64,000 nt of DNA from Arthrobacter globiformis (GTDB lineage Bacteria; Actinomycetota; Actinomycetes; Actinomycetales; Micrococcaceae): positions 62,001 to 126,000 of the forward strand of contig NZ_QLNP01000105.1 of NCBI RefSeq assembly GCF_003261175.1, in the 5' to 3' direction. The notes beneath the pieces are model-generated. The model searched no databases, was not told the DNA's origin, and saw only the letters and a list, made by a program, of their open reading frames with translations. Positions 25,012 through 34,942 of the stretch are shown here, one piece after another; the stretch's first letter is position 1; each line of letters begins with the position of its first letter. The position numbers were made by a program, and so were the translations under genes.

Positions 25012-25785
25012 TCAGCCTCCGGCTGAACTGAGCTGCGACGCCGCGTAGACCTTGATCCCCTCCAGCAGGTACGGGGCGAGGCCTGCGCGGCTCCTGTCGT
25101 AGAAGGCGGTGAAGCGGGGATCCTCGACGTACATCCGGCCCAGGCCAACGTAGCTGTCCGCATCCGGGGTCCAGCTGACGCAGATCCAGCGGTAGTGGCG
25201 TTCGACGGCGGCCTGCACCCGGGCGTCGTCCGCCGGCAGGCCGGCGTCCAGGCACCGGGCAAGCTCCTCGTTGATAGCACCGGCCTCGGCCAGAAAGGCC
25301 TCCTTGTCGGCAGCGCTCAGCGCGGCGTGCCGCGCCTTGCTGTCCTCGACTGCCTTATCGCCCCACCGCTCTCGGGCCTCCTCCTCGTAGGGGTTGGTGT
25401 CAAAGTCCTTGAAAATTTCTTCGCCTGACATGGCGTCTCCTCGCTGCAGTGCCGATATGGTGGCGCCGACGGTCCTGGCCATGCGGTCCAGGCGGTCGCG
25501 CTCAGCCAGCAGCCACTTCCGGTGCACACTCAGCGCATCCAGTTGGTCTGCCTGGCCGTCCAGAACCTGGCCAATGGTTTCCAGTCCCAGGCCAAGTTCG
25601 CGAAGAAGCAGGATCCTCTGAAGACGCAGCAGTTCAGGCTGCGTGTAGTAGCGGTAGCCGTTGTGCCCGGTGTAGGCAGGCGGCAGCAACCCCACCTGGT
25701 CGTAATGCCGGAGGGTCCTGGACGAGACCCTGCTCAGCTTCGCCAGTTCGACGGTGGACCAGCTCCGGAGTTCTTCCTGCTTCAT
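25012..25785 (-). CDS. MerR-family regulator of the TipAL type
   Basis: A 257-residue protein with an N-terminal MerR winged helix (WSTVELAKLSRVSSRTLRHYDQVGLLPPA, then GYRYYTQPELLRLQRIL), a coiled dimerisation helix (about 75-115), and a C-terminal TipAS domain (about 125-255; NPYEEEARERWGDKAVEDS and RHYRWICVSWTPDADSYVGLGRMYVEDPRFTAFYD are family-typical). TipAS domains bind thiopeptide antibiotics and other hydrophobic or peptide ligands and activate transcription. A perfect inverted repeat 16 bp upstream of the ATG suggests autoregulation. Confidence 0.9.
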   Translation of the reverse strand: MKQEELRSWSTVELAKLSRVSSRTLRHYDQVGLLPPAYTGHNGYRYYTQPELLRLQRILLLRELGLGLETIGQVLDGQADQLDALSVHRKWLLAERDRLDRMARTVGATISALQRGDAMSGEEIFKDFDTNPYEEEARERWGDKAVEDSKARHAALSAADKEAFLAEAGAINEELARCLDAGLPADDARVQAAVERHYRWICVSWTPDADSYVGLGRMYVEDPRFTAFYDRSRAGLAPYLLEGIKVYAASQLSSAGG

Positions 25786-25863: not shown

Positions 25864-26757
25864 TCAGGTGTTCAGCGGGGCGGCGGCCACAGTGGGGAGC
25901 GTCGGCGTAGCGGATCCGCCGACGGGTTCGACCGTGATGCCGAGCGAGGCCGCGGAGCCGATGCCCTTGACCAGGGCCGGCTTCGACAGTGCCTCCGCGT
26001 CCATCAGGCCCTGCGAGACAGGGGTGGAGCCGTCCTTGGGAATCAGCCACATCTGGTAGACCTTGCCCGCGGGCGGCGGCGGCACATCCTTCATCCGCAC
26101 CACCAGCGCATCATGCGACTGCGAGATCGAAACCGTCGCCGTGCCTCCGCCATTGACGTCGACAGTCGCCTGCCGCGCGTCCTGTGCCTCGATGACCTGG
26201 TTGACGGGATCGTTCTGGTTGGCCAGGTAGGCACCGACCCCGACACCGCCGAGCGCGATCACGGCAGCAGCCGCAACACTGATGAGCCAGTTACGGAGCC
26301 CGGCTGACCGGCGTCGTACCTCACGGCGCTGGCGAGCAACGGAAAGTTCGTCGGCAGCGGGGGCCGGCTCGGCCGCAGACAGGGCAGCCGGCGCGCCGGC
26401 GACGATGGTTTCCGCCGCAGCGGCAGGTGCCCCGGCCGGCCCCGCCGGTGCAGCAGCGGGAAGCTGCGCGGCAATCCGGGCGAACAGGTCCGCAGGAGGC
26501 TCCTCCTCGGCCGTAAACGACAATGCCAGAGTCTCCCGCGCCTGGCGGACACGGTCGTTGAAGGACTGGCGTTCAGCCTCGGGAGCGCCGCTGACGTAGG
26601 CGTCGATGGCCTTCCGCTCAGCGTCGCTGATCGCGTCCAGGGCGTAAATTTCGGCGAGTTCCACCGCCCGGCCGGCCGCAAGGTCGGTGGGAATATCGGC
26701 AGCGAATGCCCTGGGCAGCTGGCGCCCGCGGGAATCATTCGTATCGGTCATGGTCAC
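25864..26757 (-). CDS. rskA: Anti-sigma factor RskA-like
   Basis: A 297-residue single-pass membrane protein: a cytoplasmic anti-sigma domain (about 15-90; LAEIYALDAISDAERKAIDAY) without the Cys/His zinc motif, an Ala/Pro linker, one membrane helix (WLISVAAAAVIALGGVGVGAYLA, about 165-185), and an extracytoplasmic RskA C-terminal domain (KVYQMWLIPKDGSTPVSQG). It should hold SigK inactive until proteolysis. The GTG at 26757 overlaps the sigK stop as GTGA; an ATG at 26751 with GAGG five bases upstream is an equally good start. Confidence 0.88.
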   Translation of the reverse strand: MTMTDTNDSRGRQLPRAFAADIPTDLAAGRAVELAEIYALDAISDAERKAIDAYVSGAPEAERQSFNDRVRQARETLALSFTAEEEPPADLFARIAAQLPAAAPAGPAGAPAAAAETIVAGAPAALSAAEPAPAADELSVARQRREVRRRSAGLRNWLISVAAAAVIALGGVGVGAYLANQNDPVNQVIEAQDARQATVDVNGGGTATVSISQSHDALVVRMKDVPPPPAGKVYQMWLIPKDGSTPVSQGLMDAEALSKPALVKGIGSAASLGITVEPVGGSATPTLPTVAAAPLNT

Positions 26758-27359
26758 CTCACCCCCAGGCAGGTCTTGAGTCGGATCAGTCCGTCGCGGA
26801 TGCGGGACTTGATGGTCGGAATGGCCGCGTTCAGCTTTTCAGCCACTTCGCGGTAGGTGAGGCCGCCGTAGTAGGCGAGTCGAACGGATTCCTGTTGCGT
26901 CTCGGTCAGGGTCTCCAGGCAGCGCACCACGGCTTCGGCCTCCAGCCGGCTGTCCACCTCGTCCGACACTGAGTCATGGTCGATGTCCTGGCTGTTGGCG
27001 CCGTACCTGGCCTCACGGTCGCTCGCGGACTGCGAGGACCGGACCTTGTCCACGGCCCGGCGGTGCGAAATGGTCATGAGCCAGGCCAGGGGACTTCCGC
27101 TCGCCGGATCGAACTTGGCGGCGTTTTGCCAGACCTGCAGGAAGACCTCCTGCGTGGTGTCCTCGCTGAGCTCCGGGTCGATGAGCACCCGGCGCGCCAT
27201 GCCGAACACCCGCCGCGATGTCAGGCCGTAGAACTCGGCGAAGGACGCCTGGTCGCCTTGGGCAATGCGCTTTAGCAGCTGCGCCAGCTGCTGGTTAAGG
27301 TCGACGGCGGTGCCGGGCGGCGCGGTGGCGTCAAAGTTCGGCGCGTTAGGAGTTTCCAT
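26754..27359 (-). CDS. sigK: ECF RNA polymerase sigma factor SigK-like
   Basis: A protein of about 201 residues in the ECF sigma-70 group. Region 2 is visible as FAEFYGLTSRRVFGMARRVL then EDTTQEVFLQVWQNAAKFD, and region 4 as LTETQQESVRLAYYGGLTYREVAEKL followed by PTIKSRIRDGLIRLK. The open frame reaches back to 27563, but ATG 27359 (METPNAPNF) has GAGAG just upstream and gives the normal ECF length. TATGCT a few bases further up may be its -10. The overlap with the RskA-like gene supports a cognate SigK-RskA pair. Target genes cannot be read from this window. Confidence 0.9.
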   Translation of the reverse strand: METPNAPNFDATAPPGTAVDLNQQLAQLLKRIAQGDQASFAEFYGLTSRRVFGMARRVLIDPELSEDTTQEVFLQVWQNAAKFDPASGSPLAWLMTISHRRAVDKVRSSQSASDREARYGANSQDIDHDSVSDEVDSRLEAEAVVRCLETLTETQQESVRLAYYGGLTYREVAEKLNAAIPTIKSRIRDGLIRLKTCLGVR

Positions 27360-27579
27360 CACTCTCAAGCATAGGTTGCCTGCTGGCAGGCGAGGCACAC
27401 CGTTTCCAGCGGTGACAGCACCGTGCCGTGCATAACGCAGCGCCGTGTTGCCCGGCCCAAGTGCTTTCACCTGCCGCTCCTTACGCCCTGCGGATGTACG
27501 CGTCCTTTTGGATGTGCTCAGAAGGGATTCGGTGCCGCTCAGGCCTTGGATGGGTGGCCGCACGGCCGGGTTACGGTTC

Positions 27580-29210: not shown

Positions 29211-29906
29211 ATGGAGGTTCGGACAGGTCGCGGTGATGCCCGCCGTGTGCACGTGGTGATGGCAGCCGTCGCGGCCGCTGCCCTTCTCGGCGGCTGCAGT
29301 GTGGGTGTGCCGGATCCGGCTGCCCCGAGTGACCGGCCTGTCAGCAGCGGCCCGGGCACGCCGACTATCACCCCCGGACACGACCCCGATGCCGTGGCCG
29401 CCCGCGACATGCCGTTCTCGGCAGGGGCCACGCTGGCACACGGGGTTCCCGTCGGGCTGTCGGAGGACCTGGCCGAAGCGCCGCAATGGAAACAGGTGGT
29501 CAGTAACGCCGGTGGCGCCAGCCGCTATCAAAAATCCGACGGCTGCCATGTGGCGGCTGAGGTGCGCCAGAACCAGTGGCCCCTGGTGGCGGCTGATGAC
29601 AGGGAATCGACGGCGGCGCTGTTTGCCTATCTGGACCCCACTGTCCTGCCCGCCTATTTGAAGCCGGCATCGCTGCGGTGGGGCGGTGAGCGGGGCAAGC
29701 CGACGCCGGCCGTGGACGTACTGGTTCTGGAACGTGCCGCCAGGCCGGCAGGTCAGAAAGCCAACAGGGCCACCGCGGTGCTGGCCCGGGTTTTCGGTGA
29801 GGCAGGCTCGTCCGTTTATGTGTCGGCATCGTGCCCGACGGCGGCGGCGCTCGCCGCCGCCCGCGCAGACATTGCTCAGTGGCTGACGGTGGTTCCGCCG
29901 GGCTGA
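29211..29906 (+). CDS. Lipoprotein of unknown function
   Basis: A 231-residue protein that is not recognised. It has a lipoprotein signal peptide ending in the lipobox LLGGC (Cys about 28), then a Pro/Ser/Gly-rich linker to about residue 65 and a compact domain with two further Cys (KSDGCHV and SASCPTA) that could form a disulfide. The predicted place is the outer face of the membrane. An upstream in-frame ATG at 29169 is less likely because the 29211 start places the signal peptide correctly. Its 3' end overlaps the convergent DoxX-like gene by 31 bp. Confidence 0.75.
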   Translation: MEVRTGRGDARRVHVVMAAVAAAALLGGCSVGVPDPAAPSDRPVSSGPGTPTITPGHDPDAVAARDMPFSAGATLAHGVPVGLSEDLAEAPQWKQVVSNAGGASRYQKSDGCHVAAEVRQNQWPLVAADDRESTAALFAYLDPTVLPAYLKPASLRWGGERGKPTPAVDVLVLERAARPAGQKANRATAVLARVFGEAGSSVYVSASCPTAAALAAARADIAQWLTVVPPG

Positions 29907-30322
29907 TGAGCCGCTGGGGCGGAGGCCACCCGGTTGAGGGCCAGCGCACCCACGAACAGGCCGAAGTCGCGCAGGGCGACGTCGTAATAGGCTCCGAGGA
30001 TGAGCAGGTTCACGATGATCCCCAGGAGCCAGGCAGCCACCACGAGCGACCCGATCCGCGGCCGCGCGGCTACCAGGATTCCCGCAATTATCTCGACGAC
30101 GCCGACGGCGTACATCACCGTCTGCGCCGGCAAGTGCAAGGTATCCGGAACCATCGGTGCGAGGTAGCCGGTCCAGTCGGCCAGGAGGTTGGTGAACTTG
30201 TCCAGGCCGAACAGGATGGGCGCGACGGTGAACACGGTGCGCAGCAGCAGGAACGCCTGGCGGGCCGGATCCGCCGCGAGCGTGTGCGGGCTTGCGGAAC
30301 CCTTCAGTGCTGTGGTTTTCAT
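29876..30322 (-). CDS. DoxX-like small membrane protein
   Basis: A 148-residue protein with four hydrophobic helices (for example FLLLRTVFTVAPILFGLDKF, VMYAVGVVEIIAGILVAA, LVVAAWLLGIIVNLLILGA) resembling DoxX-family proteins, some of which take part in thiol or sulfur redox processes at the membrane. The ATG has a good ribosome-binding site (AGGGAG, 6-nt spacer). A perfect 29-bp inverted repeat lies 11 bp upstream of the start and is shared with the flavoprotein reductase, so both are probably controlled by the neighbouring regulator. Confidence 0.65.
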   Translation of the reverse strand: MKTTALKGSASPHTLAADPARQAFLLLRTVFTVAPILFGLDKFTNLLADWTGYLAPMVPDTLHLPAQTVMYAVGVVEIIAGILVAARPRIGSLVVAAWLLGIIVNLLILGAYYDVALRDFGLFVGALALNRVASAPAAHQPGGTTVSH

Positions 30323-30333
30323 GGCGAGCTCCC

Positions 30334-30362
30334 TTCTAAAAGTTGATAACTTGATTTTAGAA
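30334..30362 (-). promoter_or_regulatory. 29-bp inverted-repeat operator, site A
   Basis: TTCTAAAA (30334-30341), 13-bp spacer, TTTTAGAA (30355-30362): a perfect 8-bp inverted repeat. On the DoxX-gene strand the spacer contains TATCAA, a possible -10 box, so binding here would block transcription. The same length and ends recur at 33670-33698. Confidence 0.65.
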
Positions 30363-30372
30363 CCGCCTGTCC

Positions 30373-30401
30373 TTCTTTAGCAACGGATCTTGATTTTAGA
30401 G
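30373..30401 (+). promoter_or_regulatory. Degenerate operator, site B, overlapping the regulator's -10 box
   Basis: The right half CTTGATTTTAGA (30389-30400) is identical to the right half of site A (30350-30361). The left half, TTCTTTAG at the matching distance, is degenerate. TAGAGT (30397-30402) within it is a good -10 for the regulator gene starting at 30415, implying autoregulation. Confidence 0.55.
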
Positions 30402-30414
30402 TTACGCTGGATCC

Positions 30415-31104
30415 ATGAGCCGCCCGACTGAGAACCGCGAATCCAAGACCGCTCTTTCGTGGACCGGCCGCCTGGCAGCCCTGGCCTCGCTGGGTGACGC
30501 CAGCCGGCGGCGCCTTTTCGAGTACGTCACCGGGCAGCCGTCGGCGGTGGGGCGGGACGATGCTGCTGCTGCGCTGGGCATGCCCAGGTCCACGGCGTCC
30601 TTCCACTTGGACAGGCTGGTCCGCGACGGTTTGCTCGCCGTCGAGTTCCGCAAGCTCGGCGAAAAGGCCGGCCCGGGGTCGGGCCGTCCGGCGAAGCTGT
30701 ACCGCCCGGCGCTGGAAGAAGTGGGTGCGTCGGTACCGGACCGGAGCTACGACCTGGCCGGAGAGCTGATGGCCACCGCGATTGAATCCTCCATGGCCGG
30801 CGGCGGAGGGGTGCGCGAGGCACTGGCTGACGCGTCCTACTCCCGGGGCCGTGCCCTGAGTGGAAACGGATCCTCCCTGGATGAGGTGCTCGGGCGCATT
30901 GGCTACATGCCCGAACAGGACGCGGATGGGGGCACCGTCCTGATGAACTGTCCCTTCCACCGGCTCGCTGACGGGCACGCAGACGTGGTGTGTGCCATGA
31001 ACGGGGCGTTTTTGAGTGGCGCCGCCGCTGCCTGTGGGGTGCCGGAGGAGAAAGTGGTGGAAGACAGGACGGCAGGGCGCTGCTGCGCCAGGATCAAGCC
31101 CTGA
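30415..31104 (+). CDS. SufR-like (COG2345) winged-helix regulator with cysteine cluster
   Basis: A 229-residue protein. Residues 15-80 form an ArsR/DeoR-type winged helix (LASLGDASRRRLFEYV, then GMPRSTASFHLDRLVRDGLL). The C-terminal sensor has Cys179, Cys193, Cys207 and Cys223-224 in CPFHRLADG, VVCAMNG, AACGVPEE and GRCCARI, spaced by 13, 13 and 15 residues. SufR, the Fe-S repressor, has four Cys at nearly the same spacing (12, 13, 14), so a 4Fe-4S or other redox-sensing cofactor is plausible. It starts near-leaderless behind a -10 that overlaps its putative operator. The cysteine desulfurase gene follows after 35 bp. Confidence 0.8.
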   Translation: MSRPTENRESKTALSWTGRLAALASLGDASRRRLFEYVTGQPSAVGRDDAAAALGMPRSTASFHLDRLVRDGLLAVEFRKLGEKAGPGSGRPAKLYRPALEEVGASVPDRSYDLAGELMATAIESSMAGGGGVREALADASYSRGRALSGNGSSLDEVLGRIGYMPEQDADGGTVLMNCPFHRLADGHADVVCAMNGAFLSGAAAACGVPEEKVVEDRTAGRCCARIKP

Positions 31105-31127
31105 GGCGGCTGAAACGCGGCGGCGTC

Positions 31128-31133
31128 TAGAAT
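31128..31133 (+). promoter_or_regulatory. -10 box of a probable leaderless promoter for the cysteine desulfurase
   Basis: TAGAAT ends six bases before the GTG at 31140, with no ribosome-binding site between. The context GGCGTCTAGA also occurs before the lipoprotein gene at 29192. It allows expression apart from the upstream regulator gene. Confidence 0.5.
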
Positions 31134-31139
31134 TTAAGC

Positions 31140-32369
31140 GTGCCTGTTTACCTGGACCATGCCGCCACCACGCCCATCGCAGCCGAAGCCCTGGCTGCAC
31201 TGACGCGCGAGCTGTCCCGAACCGGGAACCCCTCGTCCCTTCATGGCTCGGGCCGCCGGGCGAGACGCTCCGTGGAGGATGCGCGGGAAACCCTTGCCGC
31301 CGCGGCAGGCGCCCATCCCTCGGAGGTCATCTTCACCTCGGGGGGCACCGAAGCGGACAATCTGGCCGTCAAGGGCCTGTACTGGTCCCGGGTGGCTGAA
31401 GACCCGCGCCGGCGGCGGATCCTGTGCTCCGCCGTCGAACACCATGCCGTGCTGGACACCGTGGAATGGCTGGAGCGCCACGAAGGGGCGGAAGTTTCCT
31501 GGCTGCCCGTCAGCCAGGAAGGCGTGCTGGACCTCGACGCGCTGCAGGCAGAACTTGCGCGTGACCCCGAGTCCATTGCCCTGGTGACGGTCATGTGGGC
31601 CAACAACGAGGTGGGCAGCATCCAGCCCGTCCATCGATTGGTGGAGCTCGCGCACGCCGCCGGCGTCCCGGTGCACTCGGACGCGGTGCAGGCGTTTGGC
31701 TCCGTTCCCGTGGATTACCGGGCCTCCGGGCTGGATGCCATGTCTATCTCAGGGCACAAGATTGGCGGACCGGTCGGCGTCGGCGCGCTCATTCTGGGGA
31801 GGTCAGTGAAGCTCACGCCGGTACAGCACGGCGGCGGCCAGGAGCGCGACGTCCGCTCGGGAACGCTGGACACGGCATCCATCGCGGCCTTCGCCGCCGC
31901 TGCTGACTCGGCCGCGAAGAACCTCGGCCCCGAGGCGGCGCGGCTTTCCGCGATGCGCGACCGGCTCATCACGGGGGTCCGTGACGCGGTTCCGGCGGCG
32001 GTGCTGCGGGGCGCGGAGGGCGACGGGCGGCTGCCCGGCAATGCCCACTTCACCTTTCCCGGGTGCGAGGGTGACTCCCTGCTGTTCCTCCTGGACCTCG
32101 CCGGCGTCGAGTCGTCCACCGGCTCCGCGTGCACGGCAGGTGTTCCGCGTCCGTCGCATGTCCTCCTTGCCATGGGCCTGGACGAGGAAACGGCGCGCGG
32201 TGCACAGCGCTTCACCCTGGGGCATCCTTCGACGGAAGCGGACGTCGACGCACTCCTCGCTGCCCTGCCCGGTGCTTATGCCCGGGCGCGGCAGGCCGGA
32301 ATGGCCGGGCATGAATCCTCCATTCAGACGGCTGCCACCGTTGCCCGGCAGGGTTCTGGCATCAACTGA
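31140..32369 (+). CDS. Cysteine desulfurase (NifS/IscS family)
   Basis: A 409-residue PLP enzyme that converts cysteine to alanine and passes the sulfur, as a persulfide, to Fe-S cluster or tRNA-thiolation partners. The N-terminus VYLDHAATTPI, the PLP-binding Lys207 in SISGHKIGGP and the catalytic Cys331 in SSTGSACTAGVPRPS are visible. In mycobacteria the matching gene (Rv3025c, iscS) lies next to mnmA; here a reductase gene is inserted between them on the opposite strand. It most likely supplies sulfur to MnmA and housekeeping Fe-S assembly. GTG start, probably leaderless. The stop is 7 bp from the convergent reductase stop. Confidence 0.92.
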   Translation: MPVYLDHAATTPIAAEALAALTRELSRTGNPSSLHGSGRRARRSVEDARETLAAAAGAHPSEVIFTSGGTEADNLAVKGLYWSRVAEDPRRRRILCSAVEHHAVLDTVEWLERHEGAEVSWLPVSQEGVLDLDALQAELARDPESIALVTVMWANNEVGSIQPVHRLVELAHAAGVPVHSDAVQAFGSVPVDYRASGLDAMSISGHKIGGPVGVGALILGRSVKLTPVQHGGGQERDVRSGTLDTASIAAFAAAADSAAKNLGPEAARLSAMRDRLITGVRDAVPAAVLRGAEGDGRLPGNAHFTFPGCEGDSLLFLLDLAGVESSTGSACTAGVPRPSHVLLAMGLDEETARGAQRFTLGHPSTEADVDALLAALPGAYARARQAGMAGHESSIQTAATVARQGSGIN

Positions 32370-32376
32370 TCCGGCA

Positions 32377-33633
32377 TCAGCTGGCTCCCGGCATCAGCTG
32401 GTCGAGCGGAACCGTCTCGTCCGCCAGCCGCTCGGCAGGCACCTCGATCCGGCCGGTGATGAGCGCCTTGATGGTCTTCTGGGCACTCGGTTTGACGGAC
32501 CTCGGCCAGTTGACGCTCATGCCGGCCACGACCCGCCCGTCCTGCTGCCAGAGCGCGACGAACTCCTTGCTGTCCAGCGAGCCGCGGATGACCGGAGCCG
32601 CCTTTGCTGCGAGGGACGGGAAGCCCGAGTACTCCATGCTGACGTCAAACTGGTCGGTGTAGAAGTAGGGGACCGTGTCCAGGGCAACGTCCTGGCCGAG
32701 CATGGCCCTGGCCGCCACCTTGCCGCCGTTGAGCGCGTTGGACCAGTGTTCGCTGCGGTGGTGCTCGCCGGTGAACGGATGCAGTGCATTGGCGGCGTCG
32801 CCGGCGGCAAAAATATCCGGGGCACTGGTGCGCAGCGAAGCGTCCGTGAGGACACCGTTGCGGACCTCCAGCCCGGCCGCGGTGGCGAGTGCCGTTTCCG
32901 GCACCACTCCAACGGCGATCACCACGATGTCCGCGGGCAGTAGTTCGCCGGTGTCGGTCAGCACGGCCGTCACCCGTCCGCTTTCTCCGGTAATTTCCTT
33001 GGCGGAAGCGGGTAGCCGGAAGCGGACTCCATGGTCCTCGTGCAGGGTACGGAAAAAGCTGCCCAGCTTCGGGCCGATCGCCGCGGCAAGCGGGATGTCC
33101 TCAAGCCCGAGCAGTGTGACCTGGTTGCCGTAGGTGCTTGCCGCCGCGGCCAGTTCCATCCCGATCCAGCCGGAACCGATGAGCACCACGTTCCGTCCGC
33201 CCGGCGACAGCTGTTCCCGCAGGCGGCGGCTGTCATCGAGCGTGCGGAAGGCGGTGACGCCGTCGAGTTCCGCGCCGTCCAGGGGCAGCGTCCGGGGGGT
33301 GGCTCCGGGTGCCAGCAGCAGTGACCCATAAGCCTGGACGGTCCCATCTGCGAAGCGGACGGTGTGGGCCGCCGGATCGACCAATGCCACAGGGTTGTCC
33401 AGCCGGAGGCTGACGTTGTTGTCCGCGTACCAGCCCTCCGGTACGACCTCGATGGCGTCCTCCCCGGCTTTGCCGAGCAGGTATTCCTTGGACAGCGGCG
33501 GCCGGAGATAGGGCGGGTGCGGCTCGGTCCCTGCGATGGTGATGTTCCCTGCATACCCTTCGGCGCGCAGGGTGCGGGCCGCTGTCGCTCCGGCCAGTCC
33601 GGCGCCCACGATGATGATGCTTTCAGGGTTCAT
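32377..33633 (-). CDS. FAD-dependent ferredoxin-reductase-type oxidoreductase
   Basis: A 418-residue pyridine nucleotide-disulfide oxidoreductase-like flavoprotein of the ferredoxin/rubredoxin/putidaredoxin reductase group. It shows an FAD motif (IIIVGAGLAGATAARTLRAEG), an NAD(P)H motif (VVLIGSGWIGMELAAAAS), a second FAD contact (DIFAAGDAAN) and a C-terminal reductase domain. It would move electrons from NAD(P)H to a ferredoxin; none is encoded nearby. The 29-bp inverted repeat 37 bp upstream matches site A before the DoxX-like gene, so regulation by the SufR-like protein is predicted. Confidence 0.88.
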   Translation of the reverse strand: MNPESIIIVGAGLAGATAARTLRAEGYAGNITIAGTEPHPPYLRPPLSKEYLLGKAGEDAIEVVPEGWYADNNVSLRLDNPVALVDPAAHTVRFADGTVQAYGSLLLAPGATPRTLPLDGAELDGVTAFRTLDDSRRLREQLSPGGRNVVLIGSGWIGMELAAAASTYGNQVTLLGLEDIPLAAAIGPKLGSFFRTLHEDHGVRFRLPASAKEITGESGRVTAVLTDTGELLPADIVVIAVGVVPETALATAAGLEVRNGVLTDASLRTSAPDIFAAGDAANALHPFTGEHHRSEHWSNALNGGKVAARAMLGQDVALDTVPYFYTDQFDVSMEYSGFPSLAAKAAPVIRGSLDSKEFVALWQQDGRVVAGMSVNWPRSVKPSAQKTIKALITGRIEVPAERLADETVPLDQLMPGAS

Positions 33634-33669
33634 GGCTACTCGATTCGCCCGGCAGGCCAGTAGCCCGCG

Positions 33670-33698
33670 TTCTAAAAATGATACTCGTGACTTTAGAA
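33670..33698 (-). promoter_or_regulatory. 29-bp inverted-repeat operator, site C
   Basis: TTCTAAA (33670-33676) and TTTAGAA (33692-33698) match site A at 30334-30362 in length and at both ends. On the reductase strand the centre contains TATCAT, a possible -10 box. It lies 37 bp before the reductase ATG and about 100 bp before mnmA. Confidence 0.62.
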
Positions 33699-33802
33699 GC
33701 GCGGGCCGGAACCGTCAAGGAAATTTAGGCCCTGATTCCGGCAGCAAGTAGAATAGTTCGGCAACCCGTGCGTCATGGGTCCACATCCAACAGAAAGCCA
33801 TA

Positions 33803-34942
33803 ATGCGAGTTCTAGCAGCCATGAGCGGCGGAGTTGACTCCGCCGTTGCCGCCGCCCGCGCCGTCGAAGCGGGGCACGACGTCGTTGGCGTTCACCTCGC
33901 GCTGTCGAGGATGCCGGGTACCCTGCGCACCGGCAGCAGGGGCTGCTGCACGATTGAGGATTCGCGCGATGCCTGGCGGGCATGCGACGTCCTGGGGATT
34001 CCCTACTACGTGTGGGACTTCTCTGAGCGGTTCAAGGAGGATGTGGTCCAGGACTTCATCGACGAGTACGCCGCCGGCCGCACCCCCAACCCCTGCATGC
34101 GCTGCAACGAGCGCATCAAGTTTGCGGCCCTGCTCGAAAAGGCGATCGCCCTCGGGTTCGACGCCGTGTGCACGGGCCACTACGCCAAGGTCATAGAGGA
34201 CGCAGACGGAAACCGCGAGCTGCACCGTGCCGCCGACTGGGCGAAGGACCAGAGCTACGTCCTGGGCGTGCTCACCCATGAGCAGCTGAAGCATTCCATG
34301 TTCCCCCTCGCGGACACACCTTCGAAGGCGGAGGTGCGCGCGGAGGCCGAGCGGCGCGGACTGTCAGTGGCCAACAAGCCGGACAGCCACGACATCTGCT
34401 TCATCCCGGACGGTGACACCGCAGGGTGGCTCGCGGAAAAGATCGACATGACCACCGGCGACATCGTGGACGAGACCGGCGCCAAGGTGGGCGAACACCC
34501 CGGAGCGAACGCGTTCACCGTCGGGCAGCGGCGGGGGCTGAAGCTTGGCCGGCCCGCCTCTGACGGCAAGCCGCGGTTCGTGCTGGAGATCCGGCCGAAG
34601 GAAAACAAGGTGGTGGTAGGGCCCGAGGCCCTGCTGGCCATCGACGAAATCCGCGGCATCAAGGTTTCGTGGGCCGGCCTGCCCATCGGCGAGGTTGATT
34701 CCGGAGCCGACTTTGACTGCCATGCGCAGGTGCGCGCGCACGGCGACCCCGTTCCTGCCATTGCGCGCATTGAGCGGGTTGCCGACGACGCCGGGATTGA
34801 GCGGGACAGCCTCGTGGTGACCCTGACCGATCCGCTGCGCGGTGTTTCGCCGGGCCAGACCGTGGTGCTCTACCAGGGCAGCAGGGTCCTCGGCCAGGCG
34901 ACCATCGACGCTGCGCGGTCCCTGCAGCGGGCACAACTTTGA
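33803..34942 (+). CDS. mnmA: tRNA-specific 2-thiouridylase MnmA
   Basis: A 379-residue enzyme that adenylates and thiolates uridine 34 of Glu, Gln and Lys tRNAs using sulfur relayed from a cysteine desulfurase. The PP-loop [15 protein letters not shown] is at the N-terminus. The catalytic cysteines are Cys98 in NPCMRCNE and Cys199 in DICFIPD, and GHYAKV is family-typical. TAGAAT at 33749-33754 is a possible -10, giving a 40-nt leader. The cysteine desulfurase 1.4 kb upstream is the likely donor. A perfect palindromic terminator follows. Confidence 0.96.

Follow-up and report, generated by a model that had tools for sequence, protein, structure and literature searches.

An ArsR-type winged-helix regulator of Arthrobacter globiformis with an ArnR-like cysteine pattern and a predicted operator before DoxX-like and flavoprotein genes

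The window analysed here is a 64,000-nucleotide stretch of Arthrobacter globiformis (contig NZ_QLNP01000105.1, positions 62,001 to 126,000). It carries a gene for a predicted repressor close to three copies of an inverted repeat, its putative operators A, B and C. The genes of the locus stand in the order DoxX-like (minus strand), regulator (plus), NifS/IscS-like cysteine desulfurase (plus), flavoprotein reductase (minus) and mnmA (plus). The regulator (30415..31104, plus strand) is a protein of 229 amino acids (aa) with an ArsR-type winged helix (PF12840, over cut-off; AF2 pLDDT 90.9) and a C-terminal domain bearing the signature CPFH-X10-C-X29-CC. Two neighbouring genes are predicted targets. 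The first (29876..30322, minus strand) encodes a membrane protein of 148 aa that is DoxX-like only, since its PF07681 score of 21.7 bits misses the gathering cut-off of 23.6. The second (32377..33633, minus strand) encodes an FAD-dependent, ferredoxin-reductase-like flavoprotein of 418 aa, with PF07992 and PF14759 both over cut-off.

Operator A (30334..30362) and operator C (33670..33698) match TTCTAAA-N15-TTTAGAA exactly, and no strand is assigned to any of the three sites. Operator A lies 11 base pairs (bp) before the start of the DoxX-like gene, and operator C precedes the flavoprotein start by 36 bp and mnmA by 104 bp. Operator B (30373..30401) is a weaker copy with 3 mismatches directly before the regulator gene, 39 bp from A and with its end 13 bp from the regulator start; A and B have the 12-mer CTTGATTTTAGA in common. 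Several other genera likewise pair A with a weak site at a distance of 38-39 bp. At 3 mismatches or fewer, the motif matched three times in the window, compared with a mean of 0.07 in shuffled sequence. Whole-genome scans used the 29-bp form and covered genomes of one family. In the source genome (G000, 4.88 Mb in 88 contigs) exact matches were A and C only, the reversed control gave 0, and one further site with a single mismatch was found on contig C29. An earlier sequence-only reading had placed all three repeats correctly, and their number in the window lies far above that in the shuffles.

A consensus scan put the -10 element of each target inside its operator. The DoxX-like promoter (30354..30383, minus strand) reads TTGCTA-18-TAAAAT, with the -10 in operator A and the -35 in operator B, and the flavoprotein promoter (33690..33718, minus strand) reads TTGACG-17-TAAAGT, with the -10 in operator C. 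These calls in the window are consensus matches and are not evidence by themselves. Among 111 distinct operator-bearing regions, a TTG on the strand of the divergent gene preceded the in-operator hexamer (consensus TAAART) at 17 bp in 68 and at 18 bp in 22 (90/111), and every other spacer from 12 to 23 occurred in at most 7 regions. For the flavoprotein gene, TTGAC was found at spacer 17 (36 rows) or 18 (3 rows) in 39/39 rows, two of them near-identical. An operator over the -10 holds the position expected of a blocking repressor, and activation from such a position would be unusual. Operator B had also been read as overlapping a TAGAGT -10 of the regulator gene. Its position was correct, but the consensus scan did not recover that -10, giving the divergent DoxX-like promoter and the flavoprotein promoter instead.

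Presence and absence of the sites was compared in close relatives. The regulator was matched (E <= 0.001) in 110 of 295 genomes searched within the family, the weakest of these matches being other members of the superfamily. The co-occurrence set held 55 rows, made up of 18 + 1 loci of the same genus, 35 hand-picked named loci of Arthrobacter, Pseudarthrobacter and Paenarthrobacter (drawn from the 80 best named loci) and the window. Merging at 97% DNA identity removed 7 second copies of one genome and one of the near-identical pair L081/L225, leaving 47 distinct loci that share descent and hence are not independent events. In 47 rows a DoxX-like gene lay beside the regulator, and site A was found within one mismatch in 44 of them from the DoxX start and in the remaining three (L078, L204 and L208) from the regulator start. 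Site A was found in 0/8 rows without the gene, five of which kept a 3-mismatch copy before the regulator. Counted as distinct loci, site A was present in 40/40 with DoxX and 0/7 without. Site C (up to 3 mismatches) was present in 44/44 rows with the flavoprotein gene and in 0/11 rows without it, though mnmA was present there; the distinct loci gave 38/38 (36 within 2 mismatches) and 0/9. This pattern indicates that C goes with the flavoprotein gene and A with DoxX, and the candidate role of operator C in serving mnmA was rejected on those 11 rows (9 distinct). The sequence-only reading had let its proposal hang on conservation of the repeats in orthologous intergenic regions; in the relatives examined they were conserved together with their targets. 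The eight loci from which DoxX and site A are both gone are L081, L085, L088, L214, L220, L224, L225 and L229, three of the named ones being Paenarthrobacter. Paralogous regulators of the family (L063, L065, L066) have related but altered upstream repeats by eye, of the TCTAAC / TTTTAGA type.

The repeat could instead belong to another regulator, the neighbouring gene being a bystander. In 28 genomes of the family without the regulator gene (among them G137, with a weak superfamily match only), the operator was not above control: a site within one mismatch was found in 2/28 and the reversed control in 4/28, which is the chance level. The operator also stands beside the regulator gene in many families of the phylum. 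On these comparisons we regard a bystander regulator gene as most unlikely. Across the genus, at least 55 of 61 genomes matched the operator within one mismatch and the reversed control matched 6/61, among the matches listed. Part of these matches are chance: an identical 1-mismatch site recurred in G313, G322, G323, G337 and G348, and in L120, the sole such locus read, it overlaps an ABC-ATPase-like coding frame.

Separation of DoxX from the regulator offered a further comparison. In genus g24 no DoxX-like gene was found within 10-12 kilobases (kb) around the regulator, which is divergent to folE and the flavoprotein gene, with folP behind in some. Thirty genomes chosen for having the regulator were scanned for extra sites with at most one mismatch, and an additional site away from the regulator was found in 12 of the 16 g24 genomes and in G007, of another genus; G024 had one more 1-mismatch match besides. 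All 13 unlinked sites fetched had a DoxX-like gene just downstream, with 45-63% identity to the window protein over 104-138 residues. Away from the regulator, too, operator and DoxX go together. Because only regulator-carrying genomes were searched, these sites have no bearing on the bystander explanation. TTGAC was present at the unlinked DoxX genes in 13/13, yet about 22 bp from TAAAAA, the candidate -10 lying beside or in the operator.

The site on contig C29 points to a third target. It starts 89 bp upstream of the ATG for a membrane protein of 158 aa, whose DUF1440/DUF6789 similarity is below the cut-offs; a GH15 trehalase-like gene comes next (L105:4001-6446). The membrane protein was found in 15 of 36 congeners searched, with the operator core upstream in 12 of the 15, a 2-mismatch copy in one and none in two. 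A TTG at promoter spacing preceded the in-operator hexamer of this gene in 12/13. In Jiangella muralis (L236) a relative of the protein (82%) is encoded 1.9 kb downstream of the regulator.

The regulator and its operator extend well beyond the family. A profile built from 17 regulators and applied at a threshold of 1e-10 (weaker matches include other subfamilies) matched 68/297 genomes of the order and 124/296 of the phylum. The named loci, the best 80 of at least 583, range from Arthrobacter to Streptomyces, Kribbella, Jiangella, Rhodococcus, Gordonia and Amycolatopsis, with the regulators closest to that of the window in Arthrobacter ipis (96% identity) and, at 94%, in Arthrobacter sp. ISL-65. 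In the 250 bp upstream of the regulator gene, TCTA-N-TAGA was found with N19 in 41/80 and N20 in 10/80 named loci, with no other spacer in the range asked for (18-23) and 0/80 for the reversed control. Of 200 regulator loci, 12 individually listed ones (paralogues, truncated genes or another subfamily) were excluded, as were sequences that were identical or of insufficient length, which left 174 distinct upstream regions. The core was present in 112 of these (N19 in 77, N20 in 35), compared with an average of 0.3 and at most 2 over 200 dinucleotide shuffles. N19 (29 bp) dominates the window's family and N20 (30 bp) is the form elsewhere, with exceptions both ways. Divergent partners in the 80 named loci were DoxX in 45 (40 with the core), folE in 29, the flavoprotein gene in 26 and folP in 17. 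In other genera the gene transcribed away from the regulator is folE (GTP cyclohydrolase I), the flavoprotein gene or both, followed by folP (dihydropteroate synthase), which puts a putative redox regulator next to folate/pterin genes (L036:5791-6411, L093:8202-9185, L070:7060-8004). At L162:2336-2662 the flavoprotein gene and the regulator are separated by a gene for a Rieske ferredoxin, which suggests an electron-transfer partner of the flavoprotein.

Two genes of the window locus are neighbours and not targets. The NifS/IscS-like desulfurase gene (31140..32369, plus strand) starts 35 bp past the regulator stop codon and is possibly transcribed by read-through from the regulator. It is not a conserved member of the locus: a desulfurase start within 900 bp downstream of the regulator start was found in 27/80 named loci only. 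The mnmA gene (33803..34942, plus strand) encodes a tRNA 2-thiouridine synthase (NF001138, 405 bits, over cut-off). NifS and MnmA were rejected as regulon members, because no operator of their own was found and they are not regularly beside the regulator. Comparison supported the earlier proposal of one regulator acting on itself, the DoxX-like gene and the flavoprotein gene rather than on a suf operon, both through operator/target co-occurrence and through the control-level operator counts in regulator-less genomes; the desulfurase and MnmA that it had set beside them are left as neighbours without an operator. In some close relatives an EamA-type transporter gene lies between regulator and desulfurase (e.g. 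L074:5130-6008).

These neighbours bear on whether the regulator is a SufR paralogue that reports iron-sulfur (Fe-S) supply, with NifS and MnmA in its regulon. In alignment, three of its cysteines fall on those of this genome's own SufR, whose spacing is that of the published ligands (C203, C216 and C244 in M. tuberculosis, according to the accessible parts of PMC6034842), and the closeness of nifS would fit as well. Both proteins have a winged helix, three alignable C-terminal cysteines and autoregulation, the last being predicted here. However, a separate SufR-like gene directly precedes sufB on contig C44, where sufB/D-type genes lie; its product scores 74 bits with the SufR model TIGR02702 (E 1.3e-20, under the cut-off of 178.8), and the window regulator gave no TIGR02702 match at 0.001. 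SufR has C-X12-C-X27-C, whereas the regulator has C-X13-C-X29/30-C. The proximity of nifS is confined to a minority of loci, as noted above, and site C tracks the flavoprotein gene and not mnmA. The targets of SufR differ too, as does its operator, CAAC-N6-GTTG in cyanobacteria and Streptomyces (accessible parts of PMC8593673 and PMC11995493). By eye no CAAC-N6-GTTG was present in the A/B region, and near the genome's own SufR-like gene (L123 scan) matches had one mismatch only, 6 compared with 3.8 expected. We rejected a SufR identity for the regulator on the TIGR02702 result, the suf-operon position, the cysteine spacing and the operator, and a SufR paralogue acting on NifS and MnmA is very improbable.

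The cysteine spacing, which the sequence-only reading had likened to that of SufR, is closest to ArnR among characterised proteins. The regulator has cysteines at 179, 193, 207, 223 and 224. C179, C193 and the pair CC223-224 were invariant in 61 aligned relatives, while C207 was a cysteine in 47/71 family rows and was not invariant in either the 17-row or the 61-row alignment; C207 was rejected as a fourth ligand because the position is not conserved. The four positions first listed (Cys179, Cys193, Cys207 and Cys223) were right, but that list omitted C224 and included the unconserved C207. According to the available parts of PMC12343034, ArnR, a nitric-oxide-sensing repressor, has Cys179, Cys193, Cys223 and a conserved His close by, contains a [4Fe-4S] cluster, acts as a dimer on DNA that it loses upon di-nitrosylation, and has a sensor domain likened to TRAPPC3.

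ArnR (Corynebacterium glutamicum Cgl1185) is a repressor, as predicted for the window regulator, and like it has a winged helix and a C-terminal sensor whose three cysteines stand at steps of 14 and 30, and its homologues are nearly confined to Actinobacteria. ArnR represses narKGHJI and hmp, whereas DoxX and the flavoprotein gene are the predicted targets here and folE/folP elsewhere. In the window genome the three sites with at most one mismatch stand before doxX/regulator, before the flavoprotein gene and before the membrane protein with GH15; the hmp and nar genes themselves were not searched for. ArnR candidates were picked by their place near narI, with no verified ArnR sequence used. 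Of 10 nar loci fetched, 2 had a clear match to the family profile, both from small genomes (f22/g309), with the candidate about 2.7 kb downstream of narI and cysteines at 179, 193, 222 and 223. In these two loci no TCTA-N18 to N21-TAGA repeat was found. The profile scored the genome's SufR-like protein at 5.3e-9. Compared with ArsR/SmtB proteins the regulator has an extra C-terminal domain of about 120 residues that holds the cysteines, and its NF033788 (HTH_metalloreg) score of 24.8 bits is below the cut-off of 55. The N-terminal part has the ArsR-type fold, and the PDB matches of the family profile, by sequence, fall in that part except 5i8l (E 0.0025). Equal cysteine spacing together with homology suggests that the sensor probably works like that of ArnR. 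On this comparison the regulator is not SufR and can be called ArnR-like but not ArnR, and its predicted operator and targets are its own. Rv2621c of M. tuberculosis is termed ArnR-like in the available parts of PMC12343034; considered here as a possible relative, it occurs in transcriptome tables or lists that deal with pHBA treatment, with nitrite and with a csoR mutant.

We consider it likely that a winged-helix repressor with an ArnR-like sensor controls the DoxX-like gene, the flavoprotein gene and the membrane protein/GH15 genes through an operator that overlaps the -10. Sequence comparison lends strong support to the regulatory link of operator, targets, promoter overlap and regulator, and the regulator is probably a metal- or iron-sulfur-sensing repressor. 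The 229-aa protein would be a SufR/ArnR-superfamily repressor, presumably a dimer, that binds the 29-bp inverted repeat, or a 30-bp form of it in many other actinobacteria. Superimposed on the -10 of a target, the bound repressor would exclude RNA polymerase. It would control itself and the divergent DoxX-like gene via A and B, the flavoprotein reductase via C, and the 158-aa membrane protein with the GH15 trehalase-like gene from the site on the other contig. The invariant C179, C193, C223 and C224, usually with H182, most probably carry an ArnR-like [4Fe-4S] cluster, and the repressor would be released by nitric oxide (NO), by oxidants or when the cluster is damaged.

Several observations weigh against this proposal. 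Position 182 is not invariant: in 178 signature-bearing rows across the phylum it is H in 162, D in 10 and another residue in 6. The ArnR candidates match the family profile modestly (E 3.5e-12 and 3.9e-11), and in the tree the family lies on one side of a weak branch (65/90) with the ArnR candidates and SufR outside, on long branches. The exact core was lacking in 62/174 upstream regions; among the named loci only 14/29 with folE had it upstream, and the folE-type loci of Cryobacterium, Microbacterium, Leifsonia and Agromyces had none before the regulator. In core-less loci the operators have diverged, moved or are missing. Finally, the C-terminal model bears a tentative resemblance to TRAPPC3/V4R-type domains, which bind aromatic ligands in MopR and PoxR. 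The Cys/His site might accordingly bind zinc, in a structural or sensory role, with a V4R/TRAPPC3-like domain that senses a phenol, quinone or aldehyde as in MopR/PoxR and with no Fe-S cluster. We judge a zinc site of this kind unlikely, and favour the ArnR-like cluster on the shared cysteine spacing.

A wider form of the ArnR-like proposal takes these proteins as a third phylum-wide branch of the SufR/ArnR superfamily, with a regulon of DoxX, the ferredoxin-reductase-like flavoprotein and the pterin genes folE and folP, and with an operator fused to the -10. Loss of the [4Fe-4S] cluster (through NO, oxidant or iron lack) would then link membrane redox and folate/pterin supply to Fe-S health. 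We offer this wider form tentatively, as a reading with somewhat less than an even chance.

We found no published account of a DoxX/flavoprotein regulon, although an earlier description is possible, most subscription papers having been outside the search. Such a regulon is not described in the accessible parts of PMC9973013, PMC10436651, PMC8959459, PMC10470581, PMC6593118, PMC4801387 or PMC12161575, and searches for a DoxX regulon induced by light or by electrophiles found no literature. An anonymous ArsR-type gene that occurs in Arthrobacter, Pseudarthrobacter, Cryobacterium, Streptomyces, Rhodococcus, Jiangella and others becomes a testable regulator, in many of them with a defined operator and targets. 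The analysis suggests shared control for a DoxX-like protein, a flavoprotein reductase and the folE/folP pair. It would also provide a natural comparison, in which SufR, ArnR and the new branch use a nearly identical cysteine set for different sites and targets.

Elsewhere in the window, an ECF sigma factor gene and, behind it, an RskA-type anti-sigma-K gene occupy 25867-27563 on the minus strand, and a MerR/TipAS regulator gene lies at 25015-25785.

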